Position numbers and translations under genes: made by a program. From Persicirhabdus sediminis (GTDB lineage Bacteria > Verrucomicrobiota > Verrucomicrobiia > Verrucomicrobiales > Akkermansiaceae), in NCBI RefSeq assembly GCF_016595495.1, contig NZ_JAENIM010000020.1, positions 1-51,535 of the forward strand: a stretch of 51,535 bases of DNA. The letters run 5' to 3'. Shown here one piece after another: positions 36-35,349 of this stretch (positions are counted from its first letter, which is position 1; each line of letters opens with the position of its first letter). A model generated the notes under the pieces. That model saw only the letters and a list, made by a program, of their open reading frames with translations. It did not search any database and had not been told where the DNA came from.

Positions 36-295
36 ATTTATAAAACGGTTATTTGGCGTCACGTAAAATTACGTAAACTGTAAACTATTATGTTTTCCAA
101 ATTGACGGTCATAAACCTTAATAAATTAAGACTTAAAACCATACTGCACATCTCGCAATGCACAGCGCACAATTCAATCTTTCCTACTCCACTTAGTTAT
201 TTCTTCGCTTCTGAACATGCTAGTCAGAATCACAAATTGCTTTGTTTCATCTGGCACGCTCCTTGCTTAGAACTAGGAACTAAGTTAAGTACACT

Positions 296-307
296 CTGTA
301 AAAGAAC
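296..307 (-). promoter_or_regulatory. Candidate boxA-like antitermination element
   Basis: The minus strand reads GTTCTTTTACAG here, resembling the boxA consensus (TGCTCTTTAACA) found in rRNA leaders, where NusB/NusE bind to prevent early termination. It lies about 260 bases before the 16S 5' end, just after a terminator-like hairpin. The match is only partial and no boxB or boxC was recognised. Confidence 0.3.
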
Positions 308-322
308 TAATACGAGGAGATA

Positions 323-353
323 AAAAACCCGACTGGCTACTGGAGCTCGTCGG
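323..353 (-). terminator. Terminator-like hairpin within the rRNA leader
   Basis: On the minus strand a stem CCGAC/GTCGG with a 15-base loop is followed by a run of six T. This has the form of an intrinsic terminator pointing toward the 16S gene. No protein gene lies upstream of it, so it could end a small RNA, act as a leader attenuator, or insulate the rRNA promoter. The stem is short, so the call is tentative. Confidence 0.45.
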
Positions 354-787
354 CGTTTGCTTCTCTCTCGTGCCCCCCTTTCGGCTGGCGGGGCGCAACC
401 TACTCAAAATTCGGATTTGCGCAAGATAAAACTACACCGAAAGTGACAAAAAATTCACCCACCACCCACAAAGCCCACAAAATCAACCCTTAGCGATTTT
501 CACAAAAATCCCCCACCCCAGCAAACTACCCACACCACAGCTGGCCAAAATACAATTTCACCAAATCAACATGCACCACATCCCCAGCAAAATCGCCTAA
601 CCGCCAGCCAATTCAGCAAAATATCCAGCCAGATACCCGCCACACCACAAGCATCCCGCCTCACTCAATGTGAATAAGTGGTGAATAACTCCAGCTGGCT
701 GGTCATCAGCTGAAATCACCAGCGCACAAATTCTCTTCTCCTGCAAATTTCAGCCAGCTGAGGGACTGCAGACAAAAGATCTGTGTC

Positions 788-890
788 GCTCTTTCAGAGC
801 TTTTTTCCTTGGGGCGCACCGGTTCCTTGGGTTGCGTTGCCCCTTCGGGGCGGCCTTACCCAAGGCTAGGCTATTTCACGCCTTCGGCGT
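788..890. repeat. Compound palindromic intergenic element (three hairpins)
   Basis: Three consecutive hairpins are visible: GCTCT-TTC-AGAGC (788-800), a nested structure with outer stem CCTTGGGT/ACCCAAGG (825-832/858-865) and inner GCCCC-TTC-GGGGC (839-851), and ACGCC-TTC-GGCGT (878-890). The block is non-coding and resembles dispersed GC-rich intergenic elements common in PVC and Bacteroidetes genomes. Only one copy occurs in this window, so its repeat status is inferred. Confidence 0.5.
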
Positions 891-940
891 AGGCATGCCA
901 TATTTGACGAGTTAGGAGTAGATCGAATCTGCCAGTTAGA

Positions 941-1047
941 ATGAAACCCAGCTAGCATGAAACCCAGCTAGCATTATCCCAGCTAGCATTATCCCAGCTA
1001 GCATTATCCCAGCTAGCATTATCCCAGCTAGAATGAAACCCAGCTGG
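941..1047. repeat. Tandem array of seven 15/16-bp units, core CCCAGCTAG
   Basis: Two 16-bp units (ATGAAACCCAGCTAGC, 941-956 and 957-972) are followed by four 15-bp units (ATTATCCCAGCTAGC, 973-1032, the last ending in A) and a final variant with CAGCTGG (1033-1047). Units abut with no spacers, so this is not a CRISPR. Each carries the CAGCTAG word that is abundant across the window. It sits between alaS and the 16S leader. Confidence 0.9.
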
Positions 1048-1150
1048 CTGGTGCCTAGCTAACAAACCCGTATAATCGCATAACAAACTTCGATTACTCC
1101 CATCGTCATGGTTCGCTTCTTTTCGTTATTTGCCAGTCTAGCTATTTAAC

Positions 1151-1189
1151 GAAAAAAATAGCCCGCAAGGATTTCTCCTCACGGGCTAT
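1151..1189 (-). terminator. Intrinsic terminator of alaS
   Basis: An 8-bp stem (ATAGCCCG/CGGGCTAT, 1158-1165 and 1182-1189) with a smaller internal AGGA/TCCT stem is followed on the minus strand by a T run. It lies 25 bases past the alaS stop codon. Confidence 0.85.
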
Positions 1190-1213
1190 AAATTGTCAGG
1201 TTATCTGGAATGA

Positions 1214-4021
1214 TTAGCCAAGAGCCTTTTCAGCTTCTGCAGCCAACTCAGCTAGTTTCTCGCGCTGAGGCGCGGCACCACGAGCTGTATCAGGACGACC
1301 GCCACCTTTGCCTCCGGCGATTGGCGCCAACTGCTGGATTAACTTGCCAGCCTGCAGGCCAGCTGCCTGAGCGTCGCTTCCAGCGTATGCACCTAAGTGG
1401 AGTTTTGACCCATCATCAACGATGAAGAAGGCAGCTTTAGTGAATTGCTTTTTCTTCAGCCCATTGAGCAGCTCTTGCAGCAGTGCGGCTGATGCTTCGA
1501 TTTGGAAGACAAAGTTAGATCCTTCAGAAATCTTCTCTTCGAGCGCTTCATCCGCATGAGCGGCTGCATGAGCAGCTTCCGCTTTTTTAAGTTTTTTGTC
1601 CGCACGAATAACAGCTTCATTGAGCGTAGTGACATGCTCGCGGCTCTTTTTGATCACAGTATTGATCTGGTGGAATGTGCCACCACCCATGAGCAATCCA
1701 GCCATGATACGAGGAAAATCTGGGTGATCTTCTGGCTCAAGACCGATAGATTTCAGCTTTTCGTTAGCCTCATCTAATCGCTTGCGTAGCTTTTCATCTT
1801 CCTCGGAATCTTTAGCAACCTCCGAGCGAAGGAATTCCCATGCAGACTCACCACAAGCAGCTTCTAAGCGACGAACCCCTGAAGCGATCGCGCCTTCACT
1901 CTTGATTTTGAAAATACCAATTTCTTCGGTATTGCGTACATGCGTACCACCACAGAGTTCCATGGAATAGCCATCTAGCTGTTGGGCTTCACCGCCAACT
2001 TGCACCACTCTGACTAAGTCACCATATTTATCACCAAAGAACTGCATGATATCACTGCGGCTCTTCACGTCTGCATGCGGCACCTCCAACCAAGAGACAG
2101 GCTCTTTAGCGGAAATCTTCTCATTAACAAGTTCTTCGATCTGATCTATCTGCTCAGCCGTTAGCGGTGCTGAGTTAAAGTCGAAACGTAAACGCTTACG
2201 AGTTACCAATGAACCTTGCTGAGCGGCATCTTTAGACACCACCTCGTGCAATGCCCAGTGCAGCATGTGTGTCGCTGTATGGTGAGCTTCGATTGGACGA
2301 CGACGCTCGGTTTCCAATATCAGCTCAACCTTATCACCAACGTGAACGTCAGCATCTGAAGGAACCAAGTGAGCGCGAGCTGCTCCTAACTGCTGAACAC
2401 CAGCAATCGTATACTCTTTGCCATTCACCCGCATGATTCCCTGATCACCATGTTGACCACCCATTTCACAGAAGAAGGTCGTCTTATCCGTGATAACTAA
2501 CAAATGACCATCATCCAAGTGATTTTCGATCACAGTCGCTTCAGTATCATCTTGGTCGAAACCAACAAATTCAGTCACCGCATCCGTAGCAATGTCTGCA
2601 GCACGCACCAGCTCGCTAGTACGGCTAGCGCGGCTACGCTCACGCTGCTCTTCCATCAGTTGCTTGAAAGTTTTCTTATCTAGCGGCACATTGCGTTCTT
2701 CGCAGAGCAGCTCGGTTAGATCGATTGGGAACCCGTAGGTATCGTAAAGACGGAAAGCAAAAGTTCCTGAAATTGCGCCATTGTTAGTCACCTCACGTTC
2801 GAACATTTCCAGCCCGCGGTCGAGAGTTTCGTTAAAGCTCTTTTCTTCACGCTCGAGAGTTTCTTCAATCACACTGCGGCGCTCGATGAGCTCTGGGAAA
2901 ATGTCACCTAGCTGCTCGACCAGTGTCACCACGAGATCTTTGAGGAATGTTTGCGATCCAGAGAAACCTAACTTACGACCGTAACGCACAGCACGGCGGA
3001 GAATACGGCGCAGCACATAGTTACGGCCAGCATTGCCAGGAATGATCCCGTCTGCAATCGAGAATGAAAGTGTACGGATGTGATCAGCAATCACACGGAA
3101 AGCAATCGCCTGCTCCAGCTCATCACTGGCAGCCCCACGAGTTAGAGTCTCTGGATAGATATCGTGATATTTCTTCCCACAGAGTTCTTCGATTTTTCTA
3201 AACAAGGGCTGGAATACATCCGTTGCGTAGTTAGTTGGTTTCTGTGAGAAATCAGTAAAGTTCTTAGTCCCCTGCATGATAGAGCAGGCGCGCTCAAAGC
3301 CCATACCAGTATCCACATGCTTAGCTGGAAGATCGCGGAATGAACCATCAGCCTCAGCATTGTACTGAATAAATACGAGGTTCCAGATTTCGATACACAG
3401 GTCACTATCCATGTTTACCAGCTTGCCGCCAGTATCACCGTTAGGGGTGAGATCTACGTGCAGTTCAGAGCACGGACCACATGGACCAGTCTCGCCCATC
3501 ATCCAGAAGTTATCCTTCACGTTGCCATCTACAATCTGCACATCAGGGTCGAGGCCTTTAGCGCGGAATAGCTCAGCCCACAGCTCCCATGCTTCTTGGT
3601 CAAACATGCCAGGATCACCTTTGCCTGGACGATAAACAGTCGCGTAAAGTCGCTCAGCTGGGAAACCCCAACGCTCAACTACCAATTCCCACGCCCATTT
3701 GATCGCTTCAGGTTTGAAATAATTGCCAAACGACCAGTTACCTAACATCTCAAACATAGTATGGTGATAGGTATCGTAGCCAACATCATCCAAATCATTG
3801 TGTTTGCCGCCAGCGCGGATGCATTTCTGAGTATCCGCTGCGCGCGGTGGATCGTATGGAGCTTTTTCTGTTCCTAGGAAATAAGGCACAAACTGGTTCA
3901 TGCCAGCATTCGTGAAAAGCAATCCTGGTGACTGTGGCATCAGCGAGGCGGATGGCACGATCGTATGCTGCTTCTCTTTAAAAAAGTCAAAAAAACTCTG
4001 GCGAATTTCGGCTGCGGTCAT
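1214..4021 (-). CDS. alaS: Alanine--tRNA ligase
   Basis: Cytoplasmic class II synthetase that charges tRNA-Ala and edits mischarged tRNA. The 935-residue product opens with the typical MTAAEIRQSFFDFF segment, followed by the class II catalytic core. The editing domain shows the zinc-site motifs HHTATH (about residue 579) and CGGTH (about residue 690), and the C-terminal DHHA1/C-Ala region ends with the glycine-rich GGKGGGRPD stretch. Bacterial AlaRS is usually 850-900 residues, so this one is slightly long but appears complete. The ATG start has no visible Shine-Dalgarno sequence. It is transcribed alone toward the rRNA leader and ends at a clear terminator. Confidence 0.97.
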   Translation of the reverse strand: MTAAEIRQSFFDFFKEKQHTIVPSASLMPQSPGLLFTNAGMNQFVPYFLGTEKAPYDPPRAADTQKCIRAGGKHNDLDDVGYDTYHHTMFEMLGNWSFGNYFKPEAIKWAWELVVERWGFPAERLYATVYRPGKGDPGMFDQEAWELWAELFRAKGLDPDVQIVDGNVKDNFWMMGETGPCGPCSELHVDLTPNGDTGGKLVNMDSDLCIEIWNLVFIQYNAEADGSFRDLPAKHVDTGMGFERACSIMQGTKNFTDFSQKPTNYATDVFQPLFRKIEELCGKKYHDIYPETLTRGAASDELEQAIAFRVIADHIRTLSFSIADGIIPGNAGRNYVLRRILRRAVRYGRKLGFSGSQTFLKDLVVTLVEQLGDIFPELIERRSVIEETLEREEKSFNETLDRGLEMFEREVTNNGAISGTFAFRLYDTYGFPIDLTELLCEERNVPLDKKTFKQLMEEQRERSRASRTSELVRAADIATDAVTEFVGFDQDDTEATVIENHLDDGHLLVITDKTTFFCEMGGQHGDQGIMRVNGKEYTIAGVQQLGAARAHLVPSDADVHVGDKVELILETERRRPIEAHHTATHMLHWALHEVVSKDAAQQGSLVTRKRLRFDFNSAPLTAEQIDQIEELVNEKISAKEPVSWLEVPHADVKSRSDIMQFFGDKYGDLVRVVQVGGEAQQLDGYSMELCGGTHVRNTEEIGIFKIKSEGAIASGVRRLEAACGESAWEFLRSEVAKDSEEDEKLRKRLDEANEKLKSIGLEPEDHPDFPRIMAGLLMGGGTFHQINTVIKKSREHVTTLNEAVIRADKKLKKAEAAHAAAHADEALEEKISEGSNFVFQIEASAALLQELLNGLKKKQFTKAAFFIVDDGSKLHLGAYAGSDAQAAGLQAGKLIQQLAPIAGGKGGGRPDTARGAAPQREKLAELAAEAEKALG

Positions 4022-4239
4022 GGTTCTTAGCTGGTTAAATCACCCGCCTGGCCGCCCGTGGCCATCGCGGTGAGCGCGCACACTGCACAATCTGTGACTA
4101 TTAGTAAAGGCATCATGTCAATTCTCAGCGGCAAAATCTGCCTATAACTGCCCATTTCATCCACCACACACGTTTTCAGCTAGCCATCTGGCTGGAAATC
4201 CAGACTTGCATCACCGTGCTATTTCTCTATCAAAACACT

Positions 4240-5106
4240 ATGCATGACCCAGATGACGCCATTTGGTACTACCGCCGTGTTGGCCAGAAATACGGACCCG
4301 TACCACTCCAGAAAATCCTCGATCTAGCGAAAGATGGCATGCTGCACAAAGAACTCGATGCCGTGTGGACCAAAGGCATGAGCGAGTGGGCCACCTCGGG
4401 TGAAGTGAAGGGCATCCATATCGAAGCCAAACGGCTCAAGGAGCTGGACTCAAAAGCCATTCGCTACCGCCAATGGTTAAAGAAGAAACCCTATAACATC
4501 GCCAAGGTAAACCCCGTCCACCTCAACAACCTCGTGGCTCTAATTGGCGCCGCCATCATCCTAACATGCGTTGGACTCTACGGCCAATATAGCCGACTAT
4601 TCCAAGACATCAACCTGCCTGTACAAATAGACGAAATGCTCATTATTGCAGGAGGATTCTTCGCCGCCGTCGCCGCCATTATCTTCTCAGTCTGGTTGTT
4701 TCGCGCGTGGCACATGCTGCGTCCTACTGGTGAAAAAATCCCCGCTTGGCTCGCTGTCCTGCTCATCTGGATTCCCGGAGCACAGCCAGTCACCAGTTTC
4801 TTTTCTATCGGACTCTGGCCACACGCATACAACCGAGCCCGCGCCAGCCACCCGCAATTCCGCTTTGTAGAAAAAGTCCCTGCTGCGCAATTCTGGGTCT
4901 TTTGTCTCTTCCCATGGATAGGCGCAGCGCTCAGCCCGCTCGTCTTCTATCAAAACCTCCAGCTGGAACAAATCACCATCGCCGTTAGTGTGTTTGCATT
5001 TATCTATCTGATGCTCGGCTATGCGGTTCTAAAAGCCATCACAGGCGCCATTAACGACATGGCTAACCTATACAAAGCTCAGCTGATGCGCCGCGAAGCT
5101 TTATAA
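4240..5106 (+). CDS. GYF_2-domain multi-pass membrane protein, function unknown
   Basis: Residues 5-60 form a GYF_2-type domain (WYYRRVGQKYGPVPLQKI, then a WTKGMSEWA segment), a small fold thought to bind peptides and common at the N terminus of membrane proteins in PVC and Bacteroidetes. Five hydrophobic segments follow. A GTG at 4216 would add eight residues, but the ATG at 4240 places the start directly before the domain as in relatives, so I prefer it. The gene is divergent from alaS and 18 bases ahead of the cold-shock/DUF1294 gene, so the two may be co-transcribed. Role not known. Confidence 0.75.
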   Translation: MHDPDDAIWYYRRVGQKYGPVPLQKILDLAKDGMLHKELDAVWTKGMSEWATSGEVKGIHIEAKRLKELDSKAIRYRQWLKKKPYNIAKVNPVHLNNLVALIGAAIILTCVGLYGQYSRLFQDINLPVQIDEMLIIAGGFFAAVAAIIFSVWLFRAWHMLRPTGEKIPAWLAVLLIWIPGAQPVTSFFSIGLWPHAYNRARASHPQFRFVEKVPAAQFWVFCLFPWIGAALSPLVFYQNLQLEQITIAVSVFAFIYLMLGYAVLKAITGAINDMANLYKAQLMRREAL

Positions 5107-25958: not shown

Positions 25959-26993
25959 TCACCGCTGCTTTTGCCTGTCGTGAAACTCAGCAATCAGCTG
26001 CCTAACTGGCTGCCATTCTTGTTCGAAAAATTGCAGCAACTTCCTGAATTCATCATTTTTATGCACCAAGGACTCGCCCGGTTTGGGAGCAGGATAGGCA
26101 GTACAGTAATCACCCAATAGAGTCAGGTAATCGCGGCGCGACTCAACCTTTACCAGCACTGGAGGCAAGCCAGCCTTTAGTAAGGGAATGTTAGCTAGTA
26201 ATCTAGCTAGCCGACCATTGCCATCAGCATAGGGGTGAATGCTTACAAATGCTAAATGAAGGGTGGTGTAGACATCAATTGCTGAGCCTCCGTCCGCAAT
26301 TACTTTTGCACTTTTATTAAATAAATCTAACCACTGATCCATCAGCGCCGCCACATGCCGCGGATGGCTATATTCATGCCACTCGGGATCACCCTGCGAG
26401 CGAATCGCCGTCGTTCCGTTAGCCTCCACCTTCCATTGGCCCACTGGCGCGTAGGCATCCAGTGTCCGCTCAGTTTGTACCAGCCGATGCAGCTCATGGC
26501 ATCTGCCCACCGATAGCTTCTGTTTGTCATTCAGCCAGCTGGATATCAGCTTGATCGCTGAACCATGCCCATGGATCTCTTCGTGCTCGCGTAGCGACTT
26601 GCCACTAACCGTCAGCCCTTGGGTCAAAATCAGATGGGTATCTCCCGCCGAGATCGTATTTCCCTCCAGCCCAGTCGAGTGATGCGTCCATTGACAAATC
26701 AACTGCTCAATCAAGCCCGCACGTAAATCTCCATCCAGCCCAGCCAAAAACCGCCAGCCCACGTAGGGTTCATCTTGCCCCTGCTTCGCTATCGCTAACA
26801 GCGCTCTATCAATCACCTCCTCATCCACCTCCAGCACCTTAGCCAGCTTAGCTACGGTCTTGCGATGCGGGCGGTTTTTCCCAGCTTCTATTCGTGAAAT
26901 CGTCTCAAACCGCAATCCCGACAAACGGGCCACATCACGCTGGCTATACCCGTGCCTTCTCCTGAGATCTGAAAAACTTATCATCTTGATCAT
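25959..26993 (-). CDS. Fic-domain protein with N-terminal XRE helix-turn-helix
   Basis: A 344-residue protein. Residues 5-63 form an XRE-type HTH (SFSDLRRRHGYSQRDVARLS, then ISRIEAGKN). A Fic domain follows with the active-site motif HPYADGNGRLAR (about residue 250), which should transfer AMP or another nucleotide part to a hydroxyl on a target. STGLEGN (about residue 110) matches the (S/T)xxxE(G/N) inhibitory helix placed N-terminal to the core, so it is probably a class II, self-inhibited Fic enzyme. Two operator-like palindromes cover its promoter, suggesting autorepression by its own HTH. The target is unknown. Confidence 0.93.
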   Translation of the reverse strand: MIKMISFSDLRRRHGYSQRDVARLSGLRFETISRIEAGKNRPHRKTVAKLAKVLEVDEEVIDRALLAIAKQGQDEPYVGWRFLAGLDGDLRAGLIEQLICQWTHHSTGLEGNTISAGDTHLILTQGLTVSGKSLREHEEIHGHGSAIKLISSWLNDKQKLSVGRCHELHRLVQTERTLDAYAPVGQWKVEANGTTAIRSQGDPEWHEYSHPRHVAALMDQWLDLFNKSAKVIADGGSAIDVYTTLHLAFVSIHPYADGNGRLARLLANIPLLKAGLPPVLVKVESRRDYLTLLGDYCTAYPAPKPGESLVHKNDEFRKLLQFFEQEWQPVRQLIAEFHDRQKQR

Positions 26994-27003
26994 ACCCTAA
27001 ATA

Positions 27004-27047
27004 GGCATTTTAAAATGTCAATTATAGACATTTCAAAATGTCTACAA
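27004..27047 (-). promoter_or_regulatory. Fic-gene promoter with two palindromic operators
   Basis: On the minus strand -35 TTGTAG (27042-27047), a 15-base spacer and a perfect -10 TATAAT (27021-27026) precede the Fic start. The palindrome GACATTTCAAAATGTC (27027-27042) fills the spacer, and a second copy, GGCATTTTAAAATGTC (27004-27019), covers the expected transcription start. The two centres are 23 bp apart. This arrangement fits repression by the XRE domain of the encoded protein. Confidence 0.65.
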
Positions 27048-27154
27048 TCACCAACCATCCCACGCCAGATCATGCATCATCCCCTTACCGAAAACCCCAG
27101 CTGGAGCAAATATGCTTGAATCTGGCGGCGCAGGCCTCAGCGTACGCAAAATTT

Positions 27155-27613
27155 ATGAACAATAACGACATCCTTCGCCGTCTTCGCTACGCGTTCAACT
27201 TCACCGACGTGCAGGTGAGCAAAATCATCGCTCACGTGGGAGCCGAGGTCCAGCCAGCTCAGGTAGCAGGCTGGTTGCAGCGCGAAGGTCACAAAGATTA
27301 CCAAGCGCTCACGGATGTTGATCTCTGCCAATTCCTCGACGGCCTGATCATCGAAAGACGTGGTCCGCGCCCAGATGGCACCGTGCCAGAGGCGCTGAGC
27401 CAGCTGTCTAGAAACGAGATCTTAAAGAAACTACGCATCGCCCTCAACCTACGCGAAGAAGGCATGCTCACCGTATTTGAACAAGCTGAGTTTGTGGTGA
27501 CCAAAGCCGAGCTCGGCTCATTTTTCCGCAAATACGGCCACCGCCACTATGCAGATTGCCCCGAGCAAGTGCTGCGCAAATTCATCGCTGGCCTCGGCCA
27601 CGTCCCTAGTTAG
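27155..27613 (+). CDS. DUF1456 (YehS-like) protein
   Basis: A 152-residue protein made of two copies of the DUF1456 unit: MNNNDILRRLRYAFNFTDVQ (residues 1-20) and SRNEILKKLRIALNLREEGM (from about residue 84). Each is followed by a segment of the type GWLQREGHKDYQALTDVDLCQ. The frame continues upstream to 27038, but YehS proteins begin exactly at this M, and the longer start would place its codon inside an operator, so 27155 is chosen. Cytoplasmic; the role of the family is unknown. Divergent from the Fic gene. Confidence 0.88.
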   Translation: MNNNDILRRLRYAFNFTDVQVSKIIAHVGAEVQPAQVAGWLQREGHKDYQALTDVDLCQFLDGLIIERRGPRPDGTVPEALSQLSRNEILKKLRIALNLREEGMLTVFEQAEFVVTKAELGSFFRKYGHRHYADCPEQVLRKFIAGLGHVPS

Positions 27614-27706
27614 TATCAGCTAGAAAATCTCAATCTCCCCCGTCACGCTCCTTCACCGGAACCTATCATCATCACCAGCAGCCACGCTGCACCAAATCTA
27701 ATCACT

Positions 27707-28012
27707 ATGTCAGAAGAACAAGCAAAAGCACCTAAGGGCGCCTCATTCGGATTTCCAAAATCAACACCAAAAAAACTGCAGGAAGAGATCGAAAAATTGA
27801 TCCCTAAAGAACTGCACGAGCAAGCCATCGTCATTCTGCGCGACAACGAAAAACAAGGTCTGCGCGACACCCTATCAGCTCGTCCATACAAGCTGCCAGC
27901 TAGCATGATCGCCATGCTCATGAAAAACTACTACTCACACGGCTGTGACACAGCTACGATCTTAGAGAAAGCCAGCCAGCTTGCTGAACTGATCAGCCAA
28001 AAAGGCAAATAA
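27707..28012 (+). CDS. Small conserved-looking hypothetical protein (101 residues)
   Basis: A charged, mostly helical soluble protein (KKLQEEIEKLIPKELHEQAI, then RPYKLPASMIAMLMKNYYSH). No signal peptide, no membrane segment and no recognised domain. It has an ATG start without Shine-Dalgarno and clean coding character, and is followed by a tandem repeat and a shared terminator. Function unknown. Confidence 0.65.
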   Translation: MSEEQAKAPKGASFGFPKSTPKKLQEEIEKLIPKELHEQAIVILRDNEKQGLRDTLSARPYKLPASMIAMLMKNYYSHGCDTATILEKASQLAELISQKGK

Positions 28013-28039
28013 TCCAGCTCGCCACATCCCACGATGTAG

Positions 28040-28084
28040 CCAGCTAGATGAAGTCCAGCTAGATGAAGTCCAGCTAGATGAAGT
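28040..28084. repeat. Tandem array of three 15-bp units (CCAGCTAGATGAAGT)
   Basis: Three perfect head-to-tail units are followed by the truncated start of a fourth (CCAGCT, 28085-28090). Unit length and the CCAGCTAG core match the 941-1047 array, although the tails differ. It lies just past the stop of the 101-residue protein gene. Confidence 0.92.
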
Positions 28085-28135
28085 CCAGCTTCCTAGCAAA
28101 GGACCTCAACCATAATAGAACTGACTATTTAAAAT

Positions 28136-28174
28136 AAAAAAGCCACCCCAGATCTTCTCTGGTGTGGCTTTTTT
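28136..28174. terminator. Bidirectional intrinsic terminator
   Basis: A long stem from AAAAAAGCCAC-C-CCAGA pairs with TCTGG-T-GTGGCTTTTTT (one internal mismatch, 5-base loop) between two convergent genes. A and T runs on both sides allow it to work on each strand. Confidence 0.92.
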
Positions 28175-28200
28175 AGTTCTAAAATGTATCTATCAGCTGG

Positions 28201-28770
28201 TTATTCAGCTGGTTCGGCAGCAGCCTCTTCCATGCTGAAGTGGCGCTCCATCTGCTCGCCTGCCACCATCACTTTGCCAAAAAACTCCATCATCATGCCC
28301 TGCACAAATGTCTGAGTATCGGCATCTAGGCTAAGCATCATGTTCTGCATTTTGTCGCCCATCTTAGCTTCGATTTCAGACTCCCTAGCTTCCATCTTTT
28401 TGCTGATCTTAGTTTTCAACTCCGCATCAGGCAGCTCCATCTTTTCCAGCTCAGCTGAGAGGGCGGTGAAGCGATCGCCAATTTTATCTAACTCAACTTT
28501 AGCGGCCTGCGCAGTTTCCATATCTTTAACCTTCAGCATCTCGTCAGCAAAGTCAGTCATCGCGTTCAATACCTGATCGGCAATTTCCTCGTGACGACTA
28601 ACACTAGCTGCTGCTGGAGCCACCTCAGAAGTATCGGCTACCTCTGCTGCCGCTTCAGTTTTTGCTTCCGCTGGAGCATCTACCTGGCTCGCATCATCGC
28701 TACCTCCCTTATCACATGAGCTCACTGCCATCACTGCTACCAAAGGAAAAATGCACTTTTTAAGTTTCAT
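28201..28770 (-). CDS. Putative lipoprotein with helical acidic domain
   Basis: The 189-residue product starts MKLKKCIFPLVAVMAVSSC, a lipoprotein-type signal with Cys as the probable lipidation site. An Ala/Glu-rich low-complexity linker follows, then a long helical domain of about 120 residues (coiled-coil-like, rich in Met, Lys and Glu). The upstream ATG at 28779 would add three residues; 28770 is preferred. No family recognised. It may be a periplasmic structural or adaptor protein. Confidence 0.65.
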   Translation of the reverse strand: MKLKKCIFPLVAVMAVSSCDKGGSDDASQVDAPAEAKTEAAAEVADTSEVAPAAASVSRHEEIADQVLNAMTDFADEMLKVKDMETAQAAKVELDKIGDRFTALSAELEKMELPDAELKTKISKKMEARESEIEAKMGDKMQNMMLSLDADTQTFVQGMMMEFFGKVMVAGEQMERHFSMEEAAAEPAE

Positions 28771-28924
28771 AACTACCAAGTTACTCGCGGAATTTCCCTA
28801 ACTTGTCGATAATTAATATTTTTATCAACTGCCATCACGCGCATAGCCGACTGCTAGCTAGCAAAATCAACTTGTGGAAAATGCCCTCCAACAGATCACG
28901 CCAGCCCAACAAATAAGAAAAATC

Positions 28925-28966
28925 TTGCCACACAAAAAAACTAACTGTATCAGTGTACCCATACAG
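28925..28966 (+). promoter_or_regulatory. Promoter and candidate operator of the GntR-ABC operon
   Basis: -35 TTGCCA (28925-28930), a 17-base spacer and -10 TATCAG (28948-28953) precede the GntR gene. An inverted repeat CTGTAT/ATACAG (28945-28950/28961-28966) overlaps the -10 box, consistent with repression by the first gene product, as known for YtrA-type regulators. Confidence 0.5.
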
Positions 28967-28980
28967 AACGACACGCATTT

Positions 28981-29376
28981 ATGCCACCCTTACCGCACCT
29001 ACAGATCAACCCAGCGACAGGCGTCCCAGCCTATCGCCAGATCATGGAGCAGATAGCCGCGTATCGCAGCAGTGGCGTATTGCCAGCTGGCTCCCAGCTA
29101 CCATCTATCCGCTCGCTAGCCAAACAACTCGCCGTCAACCCCGGCACTATCGTCAAAGCCTACAACGAACTCGAACACGCTGGCATTGCCGTGAGCCAAA
29201 AAGGCAAAGGCTTTTTTGTCACCGCCATCGAGCAAATAGCCAGCCGCAAACAACGCGAAAATGAACTCAGCGAAAGCTGCCAGCTACTCGTCCAACAAGC
29301 CAGCCAGCTGGACATCCCCTTTGACCGCCTCATCCAACTTATCCAGATAGAAATTAAGCATCATGACAAGACCTAG
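28981..29376 (+). CDS. GntR-family regulator, YtrA type
   Basis: A 131-residue repressor: a winged HTH (residues 10-80, with PAYRQIMEQIAAYRSSGVLP and SQLPSIRSLAKQLAVNPGTI) followed by only a short helical tail. That short form defines the YtrA subfamily, whose members usually control adjacent ABC transporters and respond to cell-envelope-active agents in Bacillus. Its end overlaps the ATPase gene by 14 bases, so it heads the operon. A candidate operator overlaps its promoter. Confidence 0.93.
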   Translation: MPPLPHLQINPATGVPAYRQIMEQIAAYRSSGVLPAGSQLPSIRSLAKQLAVNPGTIVKAYNELEHAGIAVSQKGKGFFVTAIEQIASRKQRENELSESCQLLVQQASQLDIPFDRLIQLIQIEIKHHDKT

Positions 29377-30271
29377 CATCGAAGTCAGCCAGCTACACAA
29401 AAGCTACAAACTTGGTACCGAAGTCCTCCGTGGTCTAGACCTCAGCGTGCAACCCGGCGAGGTCTATGGCCTAATCGGCGAAAACGGCGCGGGCAAAACG
29501 ACCCTGTTCAGCTGCCTCACCGGCCTACTAGCTCCCAGCTCTGGGCGAACCCAAATCCTCGGCTCAAACTTCCGCCACGCATCGCCAACCCAGCGAGCTC
29601 GCACCGCCTATGTGGGGCAATATAACAGCGGCTACCCCAATCTATCATTGATGGAGCATTTCATCTACTACGAGAAATGTTTCCCCAAATGGAACGCCAA
29701 ACAAGCTGGCTACCTGGCACGCAAATTTGACCTCCCGCTGTTCCATTCTTTCAAGTATATGTCTGGAGGTATGCAGCGCAAAGCCGCCATTGTGCTCTCT
29801 ATCGCCTCACAAGCTGAAGTACTCTTGCTAGATGAACCAGCCGCTAACCTCGACCCACTAACAAGAATAACATTCGTCTCTGAACTCGCCGACATTTTAG
29901 CCGAGCGTGAGAATCTATCGGTTCTACTCAGCACCCATATTCTTAGCGACCTAGAGCGCGTCGCCTCCACCTTAGGCATGCTGCAAAACGGCAAGATCAG
30001 CTACCAAGCCAACCTCATCGAGCTGAGCGAATTTGTCCGCAAAGTTCAGGTCATCTTTCCGAAGGGAACAAACCCGCCAGCTGACTTCACCCTGCCAGGA
30101 CAAATAGGCAGTCTGACTATAAATGGGCCCATCCTAACTGGAACTGCCAAATTCGACTCGCTTGACCAGCTCGACAGCTATGCGCGCCGCACTGACGTAC
30201 AAGTTGGGCTATTTCCAATGAACTTAGAAGACCTCTTCATCGAACTCACCCAACTACGCAAAGCCTCATGA
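29363..30271 (+). CDS. ABC transporter ATP-binding protein
   Basis: A 302-residue ATPase with Walker A GENGAGKTT (about residue 38), signature MSGGMQRK (about 133) and Walker B LLLDEPAANLDP (about 154). A C-terminal extension of about 80 residues follows the ATPase core. It resembles the ATPases of YtrB/bacitracin-type exporters. It overlaps the GntR gene at its start and the permease gene by four bases (ATGA) at its end, giving tight translational coupling. Confidence 0.94.
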   Translation: MTRPSIEVSQLHKSYKLGTEVLRGLDLSVQPGEVYGLIGENGAGKTTLFSCLTGLLAPSSGRTQILGSNFRHASPTQRARTAYVGQYNSGYPNLSLMEHFIYYEKCFPKWNAKQAGYLARKFDLPLFHSFKYMSGGMQRKAAIVLSIASQAEVLLLDEPAANLDPLTRITFVSELADILAERENLSVLLSTHILSDLERVASTLGMLQNGKISYQANLIELSEFVRKVQVIFPKGTNPPADFTLPGQIGSLTINGPILTGTAKFDSLDQLDSYARRTDVQVGLFPMNLEDLFIELTQLRKAS

Positions 30272-30984
30272 ACAGTTTAGCGAAACAATCTATCTACGCG
30301 GTTTATCCAGAGACATGGAAGGCCATTCTGTGGCGCGATCAACAGCGCATGTTAAAGACTGGGAAAATCCTTCTCAGCCTGATCACCACCTTCTTTTTCC
30401 TGCTGCCTATAGACCATAGCGGTTTCATGATTGTGGCGAGCTCACTGCTTCTTGCGATCTATCTCTCCTACGCATTGGGCTGTAGTGATTTGATAGAAAT
30501 GCGTGAGTCCTACGCCTTCACCTTGCCATTTAGACGGGCTGATTATTATTGGTCGCGATTACTAGCTGGCTTAGCCATTCTCCTCAGTGCGATCATCCTT
30601 ATGACCACCGTGACCTTCTTTGACCTTTCCTCTAAGTTCTGGAGCTGGTTTTTCCAAAGTGGCCTAGCTACCCCCAGCACAATCGACGAAAAAGAGTTAG
30701 GCGACATGCTCATCATTGCAATATTCGCAGGCACCTCACTTTACCTTACGAACTTTGCTTTGAATTCGATGATCACCAACATCAAACAATTCTCAGCGAT
30801 GCTCTCCTTAGCTCTGGCCATCGTCTTCTTGCCATCGGTCTTTCTCCTCACTCTACTGGAGAGCGCCAATGGATATCAGGAGCTGGAATTCACCGACGTC
30901 GCCGTATTCCTGATGCCGGCGACTACAGCCCTGCTGCTATTTCAGTCTCTGCGCGTCTATCTGGGCAAAACCCCAATCAGCTAA
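30268..30984 (+). CDS. ABC-2-like permease subunit
   Basis: A 238-residue integral membrane protein with about six hydrophobic segments, including LSLITTFFFLLPI and LAGLAILLSAIILMTTVTFF. Its size and position just after the ATPase (ATGA overlap) mark it as the membrane subunit. Sequence does not match a well-known permease family closely, as is usual for YtrC/D-type subunits. Substrate unknown. Confidence 0.85.
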   Translation: MNSLAKQSIYAVYPETWKAILWRDQQRMLKTGKILLSLITTFFFLLPIDHSGFMIVASSLLLAIYLSYALGCSDLIEMRESYAFTLPFRRADYYWSRLLAGLAILLSAIILMTTVTFFDLSSKFWSWFFQSGLATPSTIDEKELGDMLIIAIFAGTSLYLTNFALNSMITNIKQFSAMLSLALAIVFLPSVFLLTLLESANGYQELEFTDVAVFLMPATTALLLFQSLRVYLGKTPIS

Positions 30985-30996
30985 ATCTAGCAAATC

Positions 30997-32070
30997 ATGA
31001 ATATCATCTACCTTATCGTGCTGATTTTTGCGCTCAGCTTTTTCAGCAAATGGATCTATCCGCGCATCCCAAATCCACTACCGCGCAAATGGCGTCTGTG
31101 CTCGCTAGGCATTGGGCTGATCATTCTAGCTGGATTGATAGGCAACACGGTGATCCATGTACGTGATACCGTGCTTGCGTCAAAACTCAAACAAAGCAGC
31201 ACGACCATACAGGTTCCTAGCTATACACCGAGTGAAGAAGAAATAAAAAACAGCAAGCCTACTGACTGGATCGTTCTCGCTACTCTAGTGATCAGCTCAG
31301 ACATCGATGACGATTCTAAAACCACTATCTTACAAAAGAAAGTTAGATATGATAAAGGCCTGCCTAAAACTACTATCAACAGAGCTGGTAATGCTTCTAG
31401 CTTAGAAATCGAGCCGGGCAAAAACATTTCCAGCCGAAGTATTCAGGTACGTGCTCGAGCTTCGCTTGAGCGCAGCAATGGTGGCAATTCAAGTGGCGCT
31501 GGCGGTTACTCCATCACACCTGGCCCCATCGGTGCCCCCAATGGACACCTCAAGATAGGGCAAGGTCCGCGATGGTTTCAGCTCATTCCCAGCGCTGTCG
31601 ATGGTCAAAAACTCCAAGCGTATAACATCAGCTGGATTGCTAAAAAAGACGATCCCTTAAAAACCATCCCCCTATCAGATTTACAAGACTATGTGAAAGA
31701 CTTGCCTAACTCGCTCGCTTACCGACCTGAAAACCTTGGCTGGGAACTCGGCTTACCCTACAGCTCAAACAAACCCCATATCAACCGAATAAGCTCATGG
31801 TTAGGCCTATCCTTTATGCCCGCTCTCGCGGCCCTCATTTTCATAACCGTGGCCAGCCCGTGGGATAAATCATTCTCGCTTACGGCTCTGGTTGTCATCT
31901 TCATTTTTGCTCTATCAGCCGTGGATTACTGGGCGCTTAACTTCAGCCGCAACATCGCCCTAGACAGCCAGCAAGCCCATGAACAACGCATGCGCGCCGC
32001 CCACCAAATGCAACAAACCTTCTTCTGGCAAGACAGCGCGCAAGAAGCCCTGCGGCAATGTAAGAACTAA
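30997..32070 (+). CDS. Membrane protein of the GntR-ABC operon, paralogue 1
   Basis: A 357-residue protein with N-terminal membrane helices (about residues 1-20 and 30-52), a large extracytoplasmic domain (about 55-270) and two C-terminal helices (about 272-320). The outer domain contains LVISSDIDD, and the tail carries RMRAAHQMQQTFFWQDSAQ. Both elements recur in the next gene, so the two arose by duplication. It starts 12 bases after the permease. No known family recognised; it is probably an accessory transporter subunit. Confidence 0.75.
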   Translation: MNIIYLIVLIFALSFFSKWIYPRIPNPLPRKWRLCSLGIGLIILAGLIGNTVIHVRDTVLASKLKQSSTTIQVPSYTPSEEEIKNSKPTDWIVLATLVISSDIDDDSKTTILQKKVRYDKGLPKTTINRAGNASSLEIEPGKNISSRSIQVRARASLERSNGGNSSGAGGYSITPGPIGAPNGHLKIGQGPRWFQLIPSAVDGQKLQAYNISWIAKKDDPLKTIPLSDLQDYVKDLPNSLAYRPENLGWELGLPYSSNKPHINRISSWLGLSFMPALAALIFITVASPWDKSFSLTALVVIFIFALSAVDYWALNFSRNIALDSQQAHEQRMRAAHQMQQTFFWQDSAQEALRQCKN

Positions 32071-32101
32071 GCTGCAATAGCCCCGCTCCGATTCAGCTGA
32101 T

Positions 32102-33304
32102 ATGAAACCATCCATCATCAAATTCTTAGCGCTAACAGTCACTCTAATCGCCTTGATCGTCTGTGGCATTATGATTTGCCACGCGCAATACGGGCTACCT
32201 TTCCTTGCTTTGGGTGGCTTTTTCATTCTCCCCTTTGTGCTGAAAAAGGTGCCACGTCCGCTTCCGACTCCATTCAGGTGGGCTCTAGCCAGCGTAGGCA
32301 TTTTCATCCTAGTTTTCATCTTCGCCAATAGCATGTTATTTCTGCGCTCTAACTATACAGCAAATAACATTGATAGATCATCATTAATGATTTCGGTTCC
32401 AGCTGAGACAGCGGCAGACCTTCCCTCTCCTGAACAAGCTCCAAATGACTATCAGGTGATGGTCATGTTTTTGATATCGGCTGATCTAGACGACCCCAAT
32501 ACAACACGCGTACAGCAATGGATCGCCCCGACAACGGCGATGCCAGCTGATCCCTTCCAGCTGGCATTTCAAGGTTTGCATTTATCTGCCAGCTTAGATT
32601 CATTTTCTCCCACATCGGAGTGGATTAGCGGCGAATACAGAAAGGAAAGCATCAGCGCTTCACATCACTCGAGCTCCTCAGGCAGCATTGACTGGGACTT
32701 GAAAAAGGTCCGACAGAGCAAACTTGGTCACATCTTAGAAAGTGACGGCAATCTTATTTACAACCACACCCCCAATAAGATCTCACTCACCCCTTTAGAC
32801 CTTAGCTATCATAGCTATATCATCGTTTGGCTGGTACACAAAGAAGCACGGATGGAGAAAATTGAGCTGAGCTCATTATCTAATCACCTGCTCCCAGAGG
32901 ACAGCGATAAGCTTCTAGCTGACAGGCTCGATTCTGATCGCATGGGCTTCCATATATCATTTGATGAGGAAATTGCCGCCAAGGGTGTCTTGCTAGCTAA
33001 CTGGCTCATGCCCGGCTTCCCATTGATCCTTCTAGCCATTTTGTTAATCATCTGCGCACTACCAAAATACAAGTACACTGGCCTAGTTGCGCTGCACGTC
33101 TTGGTGATTTTTGTGAGTGCCGCGATCGACTTCTGGGCGATTCACTACAGCTCCCGGGTGGCGCAAGATGCCGAGCGCCCCGACCACATTCGCATGCAAG
33201 CTGCTAGCCAGCTGAAGCATTCATTTTTCTGGCAAGAAAGCGCACAGAAAATGTTAGCCCAGCTAGATAAAAATGAGCTAACGACTCAAGCAGCCGATCA
33301 ATAA
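32102..33304 (+). CDS. Membrane protein of the GntR-ABC operon, paralogue 2
   Basis: A 400-residue paralogue of the preceding protein with the same plan: two N-terminal helices, an outer domain bearing LISADLDD, two C-terminal helices with DFWAIHYS (compare DYWALNFS in the neighbour) and the tail RMQAASQLKHSFFWQESAQ. It is the last gene of the GntR-led operon, 31 bases after its twin. The pair may form a heteromeric accessory complex with the transporter (inferred). Confidence 0.75.
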   Translation: MKPSIIKFLALTVTLIALIVCGIMICHAQYGLPFLALGGFFILPFVLKKVPRPLPTPFRWALASVGIFILVFIFANSMLFLRSNYTANNIDRSSLMISVPAETAADLPSPEQAPNDYQVMVMFLISADLDDPNTTRVQQWIAPTTAMPADPFQLAFQGLHLSASLDSFSPTSEWISGEYRKESISASHHSSSSGSIDWDLKKVRQSKLGHILESDGNLIYNHTPNKISLTPLDLSYHSYIIVWLVHKEARMEKIELSSLSNHLLPEDSDKLLADRLDSDRMGFHISFDEEIAAKGVLLANWLMPGFPLILLAILLIICALPKYKYTGLVALHVLVIFVSAAIDFWAIHYSSRVAQDAERPDHIRMQAASQLKHSFFWQESAQKMLAQLDKNELTTQAADQ

Positions 33305-33342
33305 GCAACTTCAGCATCCTGACTAAGTCCTAGCTAGCCCCT

Positions 33343-33852
33343 TCACTTCATCTTACCTAGGTGAGTCGATAGAGATTCCTGAAGCCATTGGTAGTCGTCA
33401 TCACTGGCAAAAAACCTGCGAGGAAGAATCATAAACTGCCAATCAGATAGATAAACAAGAAGGACTCTATCATTGCTTTTCCAAGCATGAAGATTTTCCA
33501 ATTTCTGGCGAACACGGCCGTTTTCACTCTCCAGCTCGAAACCATCTTGATCGATAGTGTATCGAGCCTTACAACCAAGCTTCTTCAGCTGGGCGAATTG
33601 TTTTTTCGCCTGCTTAGGCAGATAGTACAAGTAGAGCCAGAGCAAGCCAAACCAAGCACCAAAGAGACCACAAGCTATCCCCTTCATGCTACTCTCAGCG
33701 TCTAATCTGAACATGAAAAAAACAATGACGGGAGCCAATAGGGCGAAAAAAAGGGCTCCGTATTTCACCATTGGAGACATCGCCTGATAGAGATTTTGAG
33801 CCGCGACGTGGTCTTCCTCCGCGATATCTAACTCCAAGTTTAATGTCTTCAT
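33343..33852 (-). CDS. YcxB-like membrane protein
   Basis: A 169-residue protein with an N-terminal soluble segment, two membrane helices (about residues 30-47 and 55-77) and a C-terminal beta-rich domain. That domain has YTIDQDGFELESENG, LENLHAWKSNDRVLLVYLSD and FMILPRRFF, matching the YcxB domain. The frame is open further upstream, but the ATG at 33852 lies one base after the ruvB stop (TAG-G-ATG), so this start implies translational coupling to ruvB. Function unknown. Confidence 0.8.
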   Translation of the reverse strand: MKTLNLELDIAEEDHVAAQNLYQAMSPMVKYGALFFALLAPVIVFFMFRLDAESSMKGIACGLFGAWFGLLWLYLYYLPKQAKKQFAQLKKLGCKARYTIDQDGFELESENGRVRQKLENLHAWKSNDRVLLVYLSDWQFMILPRRFFASDDDYQWLQESLSTHLGKMK

Positions 33853-33853
33853 C

Positions 33854-34882
33854 CTAACTAAACAAATCTGGCTGATCTGAGCGCACTGGCTGAGGGGCGC
33901 CAATTTTTGAATAGGCAGCAGGCATGGCCACACGCCCTCGTGGAGTGCGTTTCATGAAACCTTGCATAATGAGGAATGGCTCGTGAACTTCTTCCAAGGT
34001 CGAAGCGTCTTCACCAATGGCTACGGCTAGAGTTGATAGACCTACAGGACCGCCGTTGAATTTATAAATCATGGCTTCGAGAATGCGGGCATCCATTTCA
34101 TCGAGACCATCTTGGTCGATTTCTATCATCGCCAGTGCTTCATTAGCCACCTCACCAGTGATCGTGCCATCAGAACGCACTTGAGCGAAATCTCGCACCC
34201 AACGCAGCAGGTTGTTAGCAATCCGTGGAGTACCACGCGAACGACGGGCAATTTCTAATGATCCGTCTGCGGTAATCTCCACCTTGAGCAAGCCAGCTGA
34301 GCGATCGATGATCACGCTAAGCTGCTCGGCGGTGTAATAATCAAGTCGATTGACGAGACCAAAACGCGAACGCAATGGCGAGGTGAGCATGCCAGCGCGG
34401 GTAGTTGCACCCACTAGAGTAAACTTTGGCAAATTCAGCTGGATAGATCTAGCTGATGGACCGGAGTCGATGATGATATCTAGCCGGTAATCTTCCATCG
34501 CTGGATAGAGGTATTCCTCAATCGCTGGATGCAGACGGTGGATCTCATCAATAAAGAGAATGTCGCCTTTTTGCAGATTGGTTAGCACGCCAGCTAGATC
34601 GCCAGCCTTTTCAATCTGCGGCCCGGAAGTGGTATGTAAATTGGTTCCCGCTGCGCCAGCGATGATGTTTGCTAGAGTGGTTTTGCCCAATCCGGGAGGC
34701 CCTGATAGAAGCACGTGCTCAAGCACATCATCACGCATTTGCGCGGCCTCAACCATGAGCATGAGGCGGTCTTTAATTTTCTCCTGCCCGTGGAACTCGC
34801 TAAAGTCTGGCGGGCGCAATGATAGATCAAATCCAGGATCGTCTGGCTGATCCCCTTTGGGTTGGTAAAATGATTCTGACAT
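33854..34882 (-). CDS. ruvB: Holliday junction branch-migration helicase RuvB
   Basis: AAA+ motor of the RuvAB complex. The 342-residue protein has [17 protein letters not shown], Walker [10 protein letters not shown] (about residue 65), Walker [10 protein letters not shown], sensor 1 GATTRAGML and the C-terminal winged helix ([13 protein letters not shown]). The frame extends upstream to 35008, but the ATG at 34882 gives the normal length. ruvA and ruvC are not adjacent; instead it lies 8 bases after the ACT-domain gene. No LexA box was noticed nearby. Confidence 0.97.
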
Positions 34883-34890
34883 GGCAGTGG

Positions 34891-35349
34891 CTATCGCAGC
34901 AGGTCTTCTTCGTAGACTATCTGCACTCCAGCTGAGCTGAGCACGGATACGCCAAAAAAGGTATCTTCCAAATGCATTGCGAGCAAGGTTTTGCCGTGCG
35001 GGTGGCACAAAAGTGTGTAGGTGAAGTCGACGTTAGTCTCGGCAGCTCTGAGCGTATCGAGGCATTTGCTGAGCCCAGCATTGACATCGCGCAGTGCCAC
35101 AACACATAACTCACAGGTATTGAAGGCGATGCCCTTTTCTATGAATAGCTGAGAGGCCAGATCTGGGTCTGATAGAACTAATCTAGCTACTGAAACATCG
35201 TGAGAATCTTGCATGCTCAGCCCAACCACTTCGATCTTTGCTCGATGCAGCAAGCGAACTAGCGAGCTTAGGGCTCCAGCCCGATTCTTTAACAATACAC
35301 TGAACTGCGTGGGCAATGTTCCCTTTGGTTTCACTTCCATCTCACTCAT
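34891..35349 (-). CDS. Tandem ACT-domain protein
   Basis: A 152-residue protein built of two ACT-like modules: residues about 15-80 ([33 protein letters not shown]) and about 80-150 ([20 protein letters not shown]). ACT modules bind small ligands, often amino acids, and usually regulate enzymes; no enzyme domain is attached here. It lies 12 bases after the ankyrin lipoprotein gene and 8 bases before ruvB. Its role is unknown and the link to ruvB may be only operonic. Confidence 0.85.

Follow-up and report, generated by a model that had tools for sequence, protein, structure and literature searches.

What do two similar membrane proteins do at the end of an operon that otherwise encodes a GntR regulator, an ATP-binding cassette (ABC) ATPase and a permease? 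The question is raised by the genes at 28945-33304 of contig C20 of Persicirhabdus sediminis (NZ_JAENIM010000020.1). The whole contig, 51,535 bases, is the window analyzed here; the genome is 4.17 Mb in 47 contigs and 96.66% complete. We consider it probable, with a good deal of reserve, that these genes encode a transporter of the ABC-2 type that represses its own synthesis and has a dedicated accessory subunit in the membrane. The first-pass annotation had described a GntR-ABC operon ending in two paralogous membrane proteins, here called A and B, and all five open reading frames (ORFs) are present on the + strand. The features are as follows:

28925-28953, + strand: candidate promoter, read by eye, with -35 TTGCCA (28925-28930), a 17-base spacer and -10 TATCAG (28948-28953)
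28945-28966, no strand assigned: predicted operator CTGTATCAGTGTACCCATACAG, 22 bp, overlapping the -10; pattern kept in 9 of 11 loci, single exact match in the genome
28981-29376, + strand: GntR-family regulator, 131 amino acids, YtrA-type by size and neighborhood (PF00392, 8.6e-14)
29363-30271, + strand: ABC ATPase, 302 amino acids, with a clade-specific C-terminal domain (PF00005, 4.1e-26)
30268-30984, + strand: permease, 238 amino acids, six predicted helices, ABC-2 type by relatives (hydropathy; relatives' Pfam matches)
30997-32070, + strand: membrane protein A, 357 amino acids, C-terminal tail FFWQDSAQ (leave-one-locus-out profile, 6.7e-20)
32102-33304, + strand: membrane protein B, 400 amino acids, C-terminal tail FFWQESAQ (leave-one-locus-out profile, 7.4e-17)

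The five ORFs (28981-33304 in the ORF listing) are tightly spaced. The gntR and ATPase frames overlap by 14 bases and the ATPase and permease frames by 4, and the gaps between permease and A and between A and B are 12 and 31 bases. The adjoining ORFs, 28201-28779 and 33343-33933, are both on the opposite strand, and thus the five-gene unit stands alone. From this packing we take 28945-33304 to be one operon. The gene order, the families of the regulator and the ATPase, the conservation of the operator and the co-occurrence of A/B-type genes with the ATPase can all be read from sequence.

As judged by alignment, A and B are paralogues. They are 26% identical over 352 amino acids (BLASTP, 1e-29), and the match in a search of their own genome is at 2.8e-35. 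Two of the motifs that had been attributed to both proteins, D(Y/F)WA (DYWA in A, DFWA in B) and the FFWQ-x-SAQ tail, are there as described. The third, LIS(S/A)D(I/L)DD, is also in both, except that the first residue in A is V (VISSDIDD, compared to LISADLDD in B). The proposed common topology of two helices, a domain and two helices fits A but not B, which has three helices before the domain. Neither the LISxDxDD motif nor an exact FFWQ-x-SAQ string extends beyond A and B to the other relatives. What the wider family shares is a core made of the last two helices and the tail, D-x20-R-x2-A-x7-FF(W/H/F), with the conserved Asp close to where the last helix ends, the Arg 21 residues on, the Ala 3 further and the FF 8-9 further. 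In a 12-row alignment (A7, B numbering), D343, R364 and A367 are each kept in 11 of 12 rows, F375 in 10 and F376 in all 12.

DDP is found at one place in the outer domain in 6 of the 12 rows (A and the proteins of genomes G051, G381, G304, G802 and G713); B has EAR where A has DDP. Because A keeps DDP and B does not, B may be the more diverged copy of the pair. In an unrooted tree of nine sequences, A and B form one group (support 0.971) next to the G051 relative, and the duplication is therefore most simply placed in the lineage of the window. The tree and the leave-one-out models were built from 9 of the 12 A7 rows; the remaining three, two from G147 and one from G754, served as test sequences.

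The first-pass annotation did not recognize the family of A and B, and no strong match to a characterized family turned up in the libraries searched. Both proteins have only sub-threshold matches in Pfam and NCBIfam (best E 0.028 and 0.16) and no PADLOC match at E<=0.01. The best NCBIfam match of the 12 family members is just 0.012, and the 12-row profile matches no chain among PDB sequences below E 0.25. In Pfam, 4 of the 12 members match DUF4131 at E<=0.1 (best 5.7e-6) and 3 of the 12 match Wzy_C (best 5.3e-4), which we took as hydrophobic-helix matches.

Do genes of this family accompany the same transporter genes elsewhere? In a first search of 98 genomes, including its own, B was matched at E<=0.001 in two, its own and G051. 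A scan of close-relative contigs with B gave 15 pattern matches, none of which was confirmed. A three-row profile (A1) had matches in 7 of 386 genomes of the order, own included; those in G283 and G315 were set aside, since they are confined to profile positions 267-338 and the G283 neighborhood looks CdsA-like. That locus (L017 of G283, genus g3, 1981-4639) encodes three similar tandem membrane proteins of 287, 286 and 291 amino acids, which look like phosphatidate cytidylyltransferases (CdsA). With the ATPase, which is more conserved and thus the better probe, matches were found in 7 of 386 genomes of the order at E<=1e-80 and in 8 of 387 genomes of the phylum at E<=1e-75, own included in both. 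Ten genomes of six genera (G000, G051, G289, G304, G381, G147, G238, G707, G802 and G713, with our own counted among them) have an ATPase match at E<=1e-110. In the survey of GntR/ABC linkage that the first-pass annotation had called for, all nine intact loci of these ten genomes have a GntR gene, the ATPase, a permease and an A/B-family gene together, and the G238 locus meets a contig edge after the permease start.

The assignment of these genes to the family was confirmed with profiles that omit the tested locus (L038 and L039, 72% identical, also omit each other). At E<=1 and among ORFs of at least 100 amino acids, these profiles hit the A/B-family genes of the operons only, namely A and B among the 54 ORFs of the window and others at 1.1e-7 to 3.5e-60 at the remaining loci; L015, L016 and L028 share one genus and help each other in this comparison. 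No A/B relative was found with these profiles in L029, L041, L042, L043, L044 or L045. Weaker ATPase matches that come without a recognized A/B relative are those in G754 (1e-99 and 1e-94) and in G424, G851 and G857 (near 1e-78), so the A/B link is specific to this ATPase clade, with one caveat: the L044 contig (G851) ends just 3' of the ATPase. At L041 of G754 (164-3926), the order is GntR, permease, a 432-amino-acid membrane protein and ATPase; that protein (E 2.9, no leave-one-locus-out match) was rejected as a family member and, although a row of A7, is not counted. Beside the G304 operon, L016 (93-5067) has a second ABC set, a 303-amino-acid ATPase followed by apparent membrane proteins of 829 and 526 amino acids.

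A scan with the C-terminal domain of the ATPase found four named, metagenome-assembled records: Verrucomicrobia bacterium casp40-mb.124, Verrucomicrobia bacterium UWPOB_VERRUCO3, Akkermansiaceae bacterium A14_bin-1981 and Haloferula sp. Akkermansiaceae and Haloferula belong to the Verrucomicrobiales, Verrucomicrobiota, in the NCBI taxonomy (Haloferula in the Verrucomicrobiaceae). The named relatives are thus Verrucomicrobiota. PADLOC matches of the window ATPase look like generic ATPase matches, and no defense system was inferred from them. The predicted six-helix layout of the permease resembles that of the ABC-2 families PF13346 and PF12679. These models match 2 of the 11 members of its family (best 1.3e-6) and 1 of 11 (1.7e-5), respectively, but not the window permease itself.

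G147 (L014, 5303-12228) bears on whether A and B are physical subunits. Three permease-like proteins follow the ATPase there, and a single chain of 702 amino acids matches both the permease profile (7.5e-24, residues 10-200) and the A/B C-terminal module (3.5e-7, residues 598-676). Among 140 shuffled decoys, the best score was 0.016 for the permease profile and 0.27 for the A/B profile. This fusion of a permease to an A/B module speaks for A and B as physical subunits. The expanded operon consists of GntR, the ATPase, the permease-A/B fusion, a 481-amino-acid permease with an FFW end, another permease and a further A/B-family protein. The 481-amino-acid protein matches the permease profile at 1.3e-18, carries the FFW string at its end and has no match to the A/B profile (E>10; none at E<=1 leave-one-locus-out). 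There are two A/B-family copies in the window and at least two in G147.

By hydropathy, members of the family have two helices, a domain of 199-221 amino acids, two helices and a tail of 38-78 amino acids. A has 2+2 helices around a domain of ~215 amino acids and B has 3+2 around ~221; one helix of the final pair is under the hydropathy threshold in G304 and G713. The loop between the first two helices has 2-8 basic and 0-1 acidic residues, and that between the last two has 1-4 basic and 0-1 acidic. Because these loops mostly carry more Lys and Arg than Asp and Glu, the positive-inside rule would make them cytoplasmic and place the tail and the large domain outside.

How might the operon be controlled? 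The PF00392 match covers residues 18-80 of the regulator, and 51 of its 131 amino acids remain after it. A very short C-terminal domain is the size criterion for YtrA-type regulators (PMC5080381), and by its predicted winged helix and very short C-terminal domain the protein belongs to this size class of GntR regulators. Its top NCBIfam score is to the MocR-type PdxR model, 69.1 of 320 bits, for the DNA-binding part only. The candidate promoter has counterparts in the L038 and L039 relatives, which read TTGACA-17-TATTAG at the same position relative to the operator; a promoter scan that required T as the final -10 base did not list the one at 28925-28953.

The operator candidate CTGTAT/ATACAG had been noted as overlapping the -10 box, and it is found there, with CTGTAT at 28945-28950 and ATACAG at 28961-28966. 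The pattern TGTATNNGTGTNNNNATACA is conserved in relatives, with exact copies close to the start of gntR in 9 of the 11 loci compared (the window, L004, L014, L016, L028, L029, L038, L039 and L040), although L014/L029 and L038/L039 are same-genus pairs and the independent occurrences are nearer 7 than 9. In L015 the two arms are retained and the GTGT core is lost, and in L041 the right arm alone is exact. In several loci the inner two bases covary between the arms (GG/CC or TA/TA), which a dimer site would be expected to show; they are unpaired in the window and in L004. On this conservation we regard the predicted GntR operator at 28945-28966 as real. TGTATNNGTGTNNNNATACA has one exact match, on either strand, in the 4.17-Mb genome; with up to 2 mismatches there are 18 matches, compared to 13 for the reversed control. 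Because there is one exact site, the regulon is most likely limited to this operon, as far as the 96.66% complete genome can tell.

Known systems resemble the operon in part. The ytrGABCDEF operon of B. subtilis also has a YtrA-type repressor in an operon with an ABC ATPase and two membrane-spanning proteins, and it includes an extracytoplasmic component, YtrF (PMC8060467, PMC12772383). In contrast to ytr, which has two ATPases, the window has one ATPase and one permease, and A and B have a 200-amino-acid outer domain and an FFW tail, and are set apart from YtrC, YtrD and YtrF by library scans only. The ytr operon serves as a standard reporter for attack on the cell wall and is induced by inhibitors of the lipid II cycle, agents that bind lipid-linked wall precursors; in that account its function is poorly understood and a consistent role in antibiotic survival is not confirmed (PMC12772383). 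In S. aureus PmtR-PmtABCD, as here, the gene for a YtrA-type regulator overlaps the transporter genes and the repressor site is at the transcription start, and PmtR is released by the peptides that Pmt exports (PMC5080381). However, the window proteins are under both NCBIfam cut-offs, with 115.1 of 350 bits for the ATPase and the PmtA model NF047565 (3.6e-33) and 54.3 of 200 bits for the regulator and the PmtR model NF047563, and thus this is not a Pmt system. Pmt also differs in having two ATPases and two permeases, and it is not known to include an A/B relative. In bacteria, YtrA sites typically span 24 bp and have half-sites that lie far apart, and the Xanthomonas citri operator GGTG-N16-CACC is, like the one here, a long palindrome of ~22-24 bp of this kind (PMC6746942). 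Unlike it, the site in the window has half-sites TGTAT/ATACA and a conserved asymmetric central GTGT. Among the titles listed from the open-licence full-text literature, none dealt with an operon of this kind in Verrucomicrobiota, which is a weak negative.

We postulate that a GntR dimer bound to the 22-bp operator would cover the -10 box and so block transcription of its own operon, and that a ligand or an envelope change would release it. Two ATPases would drive a permease dimer flanked by A and B, whose mostly beta domain and short helical FFW tail would lie outside the inner membrane. The outer parts of A and B could bind or guide an amphiphilic or envelope-derived substrate, and transport would most likely be outward or out of the membrane. 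That the ATPase profile is closest, among solved structures, to phospholipid transporters of the ABCA type is in keeping with this model. The envelope-stress role that had been suggested for such a transporter is a plausible hypothesis.

Several observations weigh against this transporter model. Unlike some permeases of its family, the window permease itself matched no ABC-2 Pfam model and nothing in Pfam below E 0.83, and its fold model (4 rows, predicted local distance difference test [pLDDT] 48.0) is unusable for fold. The AlphaFold model of A (5 rows) consists of four long helices and a region made up mostly of strands, with two short helices in the tail, and agrees with the layout derived from sequence, but its pLDDT of 50.7 likewise makes it unusable for fold; a Foldseek search of this weak model against PDB gave 90 matches at E<=10 and 0 at E<=0.001. 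With 1 basic and 1 acidic residue, the last loop of A has no net charge, so the topology is not firm. A further profile, A2, found only its own genome among 384 genomes of the class, and thus either the family is rare or the search was insensitive. Lastly, G424, G857 and the second G754 locus have no A/B relative, and the broader ATPase type needs none.

The alternatives differ mainly in what A and B are thought to do. As a special case of the autorepressed ABC-2 transporter, the operon could be an envelope-stress or antimicrobial-peptide detoxification module, in which compounds active on the cell wall, or peptides from competitors, are sensed or captured by the outer domains and induce the operon. 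We hold this as a tentative suggestion. YtrA-type regulators control such operons in B. subtilis (ytr, PMC12772383) and S. aureus (PmtR, PMC5080381), and the presence of just one exact operator in the genome is what a dedicated inducible pump would be expected to have, but none of the 8 Pfam-scanned proteins at 25959-33933 is a known resistance or two-component protein (short peptide genes and distant genes were not searched). It seems unlikely that A and B instead do mechanical work on an outer-leaflet lipid, lipoprotein or glycan, as in a GldG- or LptFG-like machine with no stress role. Such a machine would be consistent with the large outer domain, predicted to be mostly beta in a low-confidence model, with the ATPase profile, whose best matches among solved structures are ABCA-type phospholipid transporters (5.5e-75 over two stretches), and with a weak LptG match (E 0.79). 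However, the 15 Pfam families matched by the 12 members at E<=0.1 include no GldG/ABC auxiliary, LptF/LptG or MacB/FtsX name, and the sporadic occurrence of the ATPase, in the 7 of 386 order genomes given above, argues against a housekeeping function.

Less likely still, A and B could be separate proteins that share only the repressor with the transporter, for example signaling or protective membrane proteins. Their divergence is much more rapid than that of the ATPase (A or B share 13-22% identity with the proteins of other genomes, compared to 37-54% between the window ATPase and those of 5 relatives), and a Sulfolobus YtrA regulator represses membrane-protein genes (PMC6746942). Against this stand the permease-A/B fusion in G147 and the linkage in 9 of 9 intact loci.

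Elsewhere in the window, a protein encoded at 25959-26993 on the - strand has an N-terminal helix-turn-helix (PF01381, 4.9e-13) and a C-terminal Fic domain (PF02661, 4.6e-11). The ORF at 33343-33933 (- strand) encodes a YcxB-like protein (PF14317, 7.1e-10), and the listed frame overlaps the 3' end of the ORF at 33854-35008, which we take to be RuvB-like. The window was also searched for tRNAs and for Rfam matches above gathering scores, and has neither.

Going beyond the autorepressed transporter itself, we speculate, tentatively, that A and B could represent a new family of transporter partner with an extracytoplasmic domain that recurs across Verrucomicrobiota. Its members might serve as a substrate receptor on a minimal ABC-2 pump, with the FFW tail as a docking element, and its copies might multiply and could become fused to the permease. 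A and B point to a family of membrane proteins missed by the Pfam, NCBIfam, PADLOC and PDB searches. If they are such partners, the operon would encode a minimal ABC-2 pump whose substrate receptor is built in and faces the outside. Because it has just one ATPase and one permease, a partner with an outer domain and one exact operator per genome, it would be a small system in which the inducer and the substrate could be found directly.

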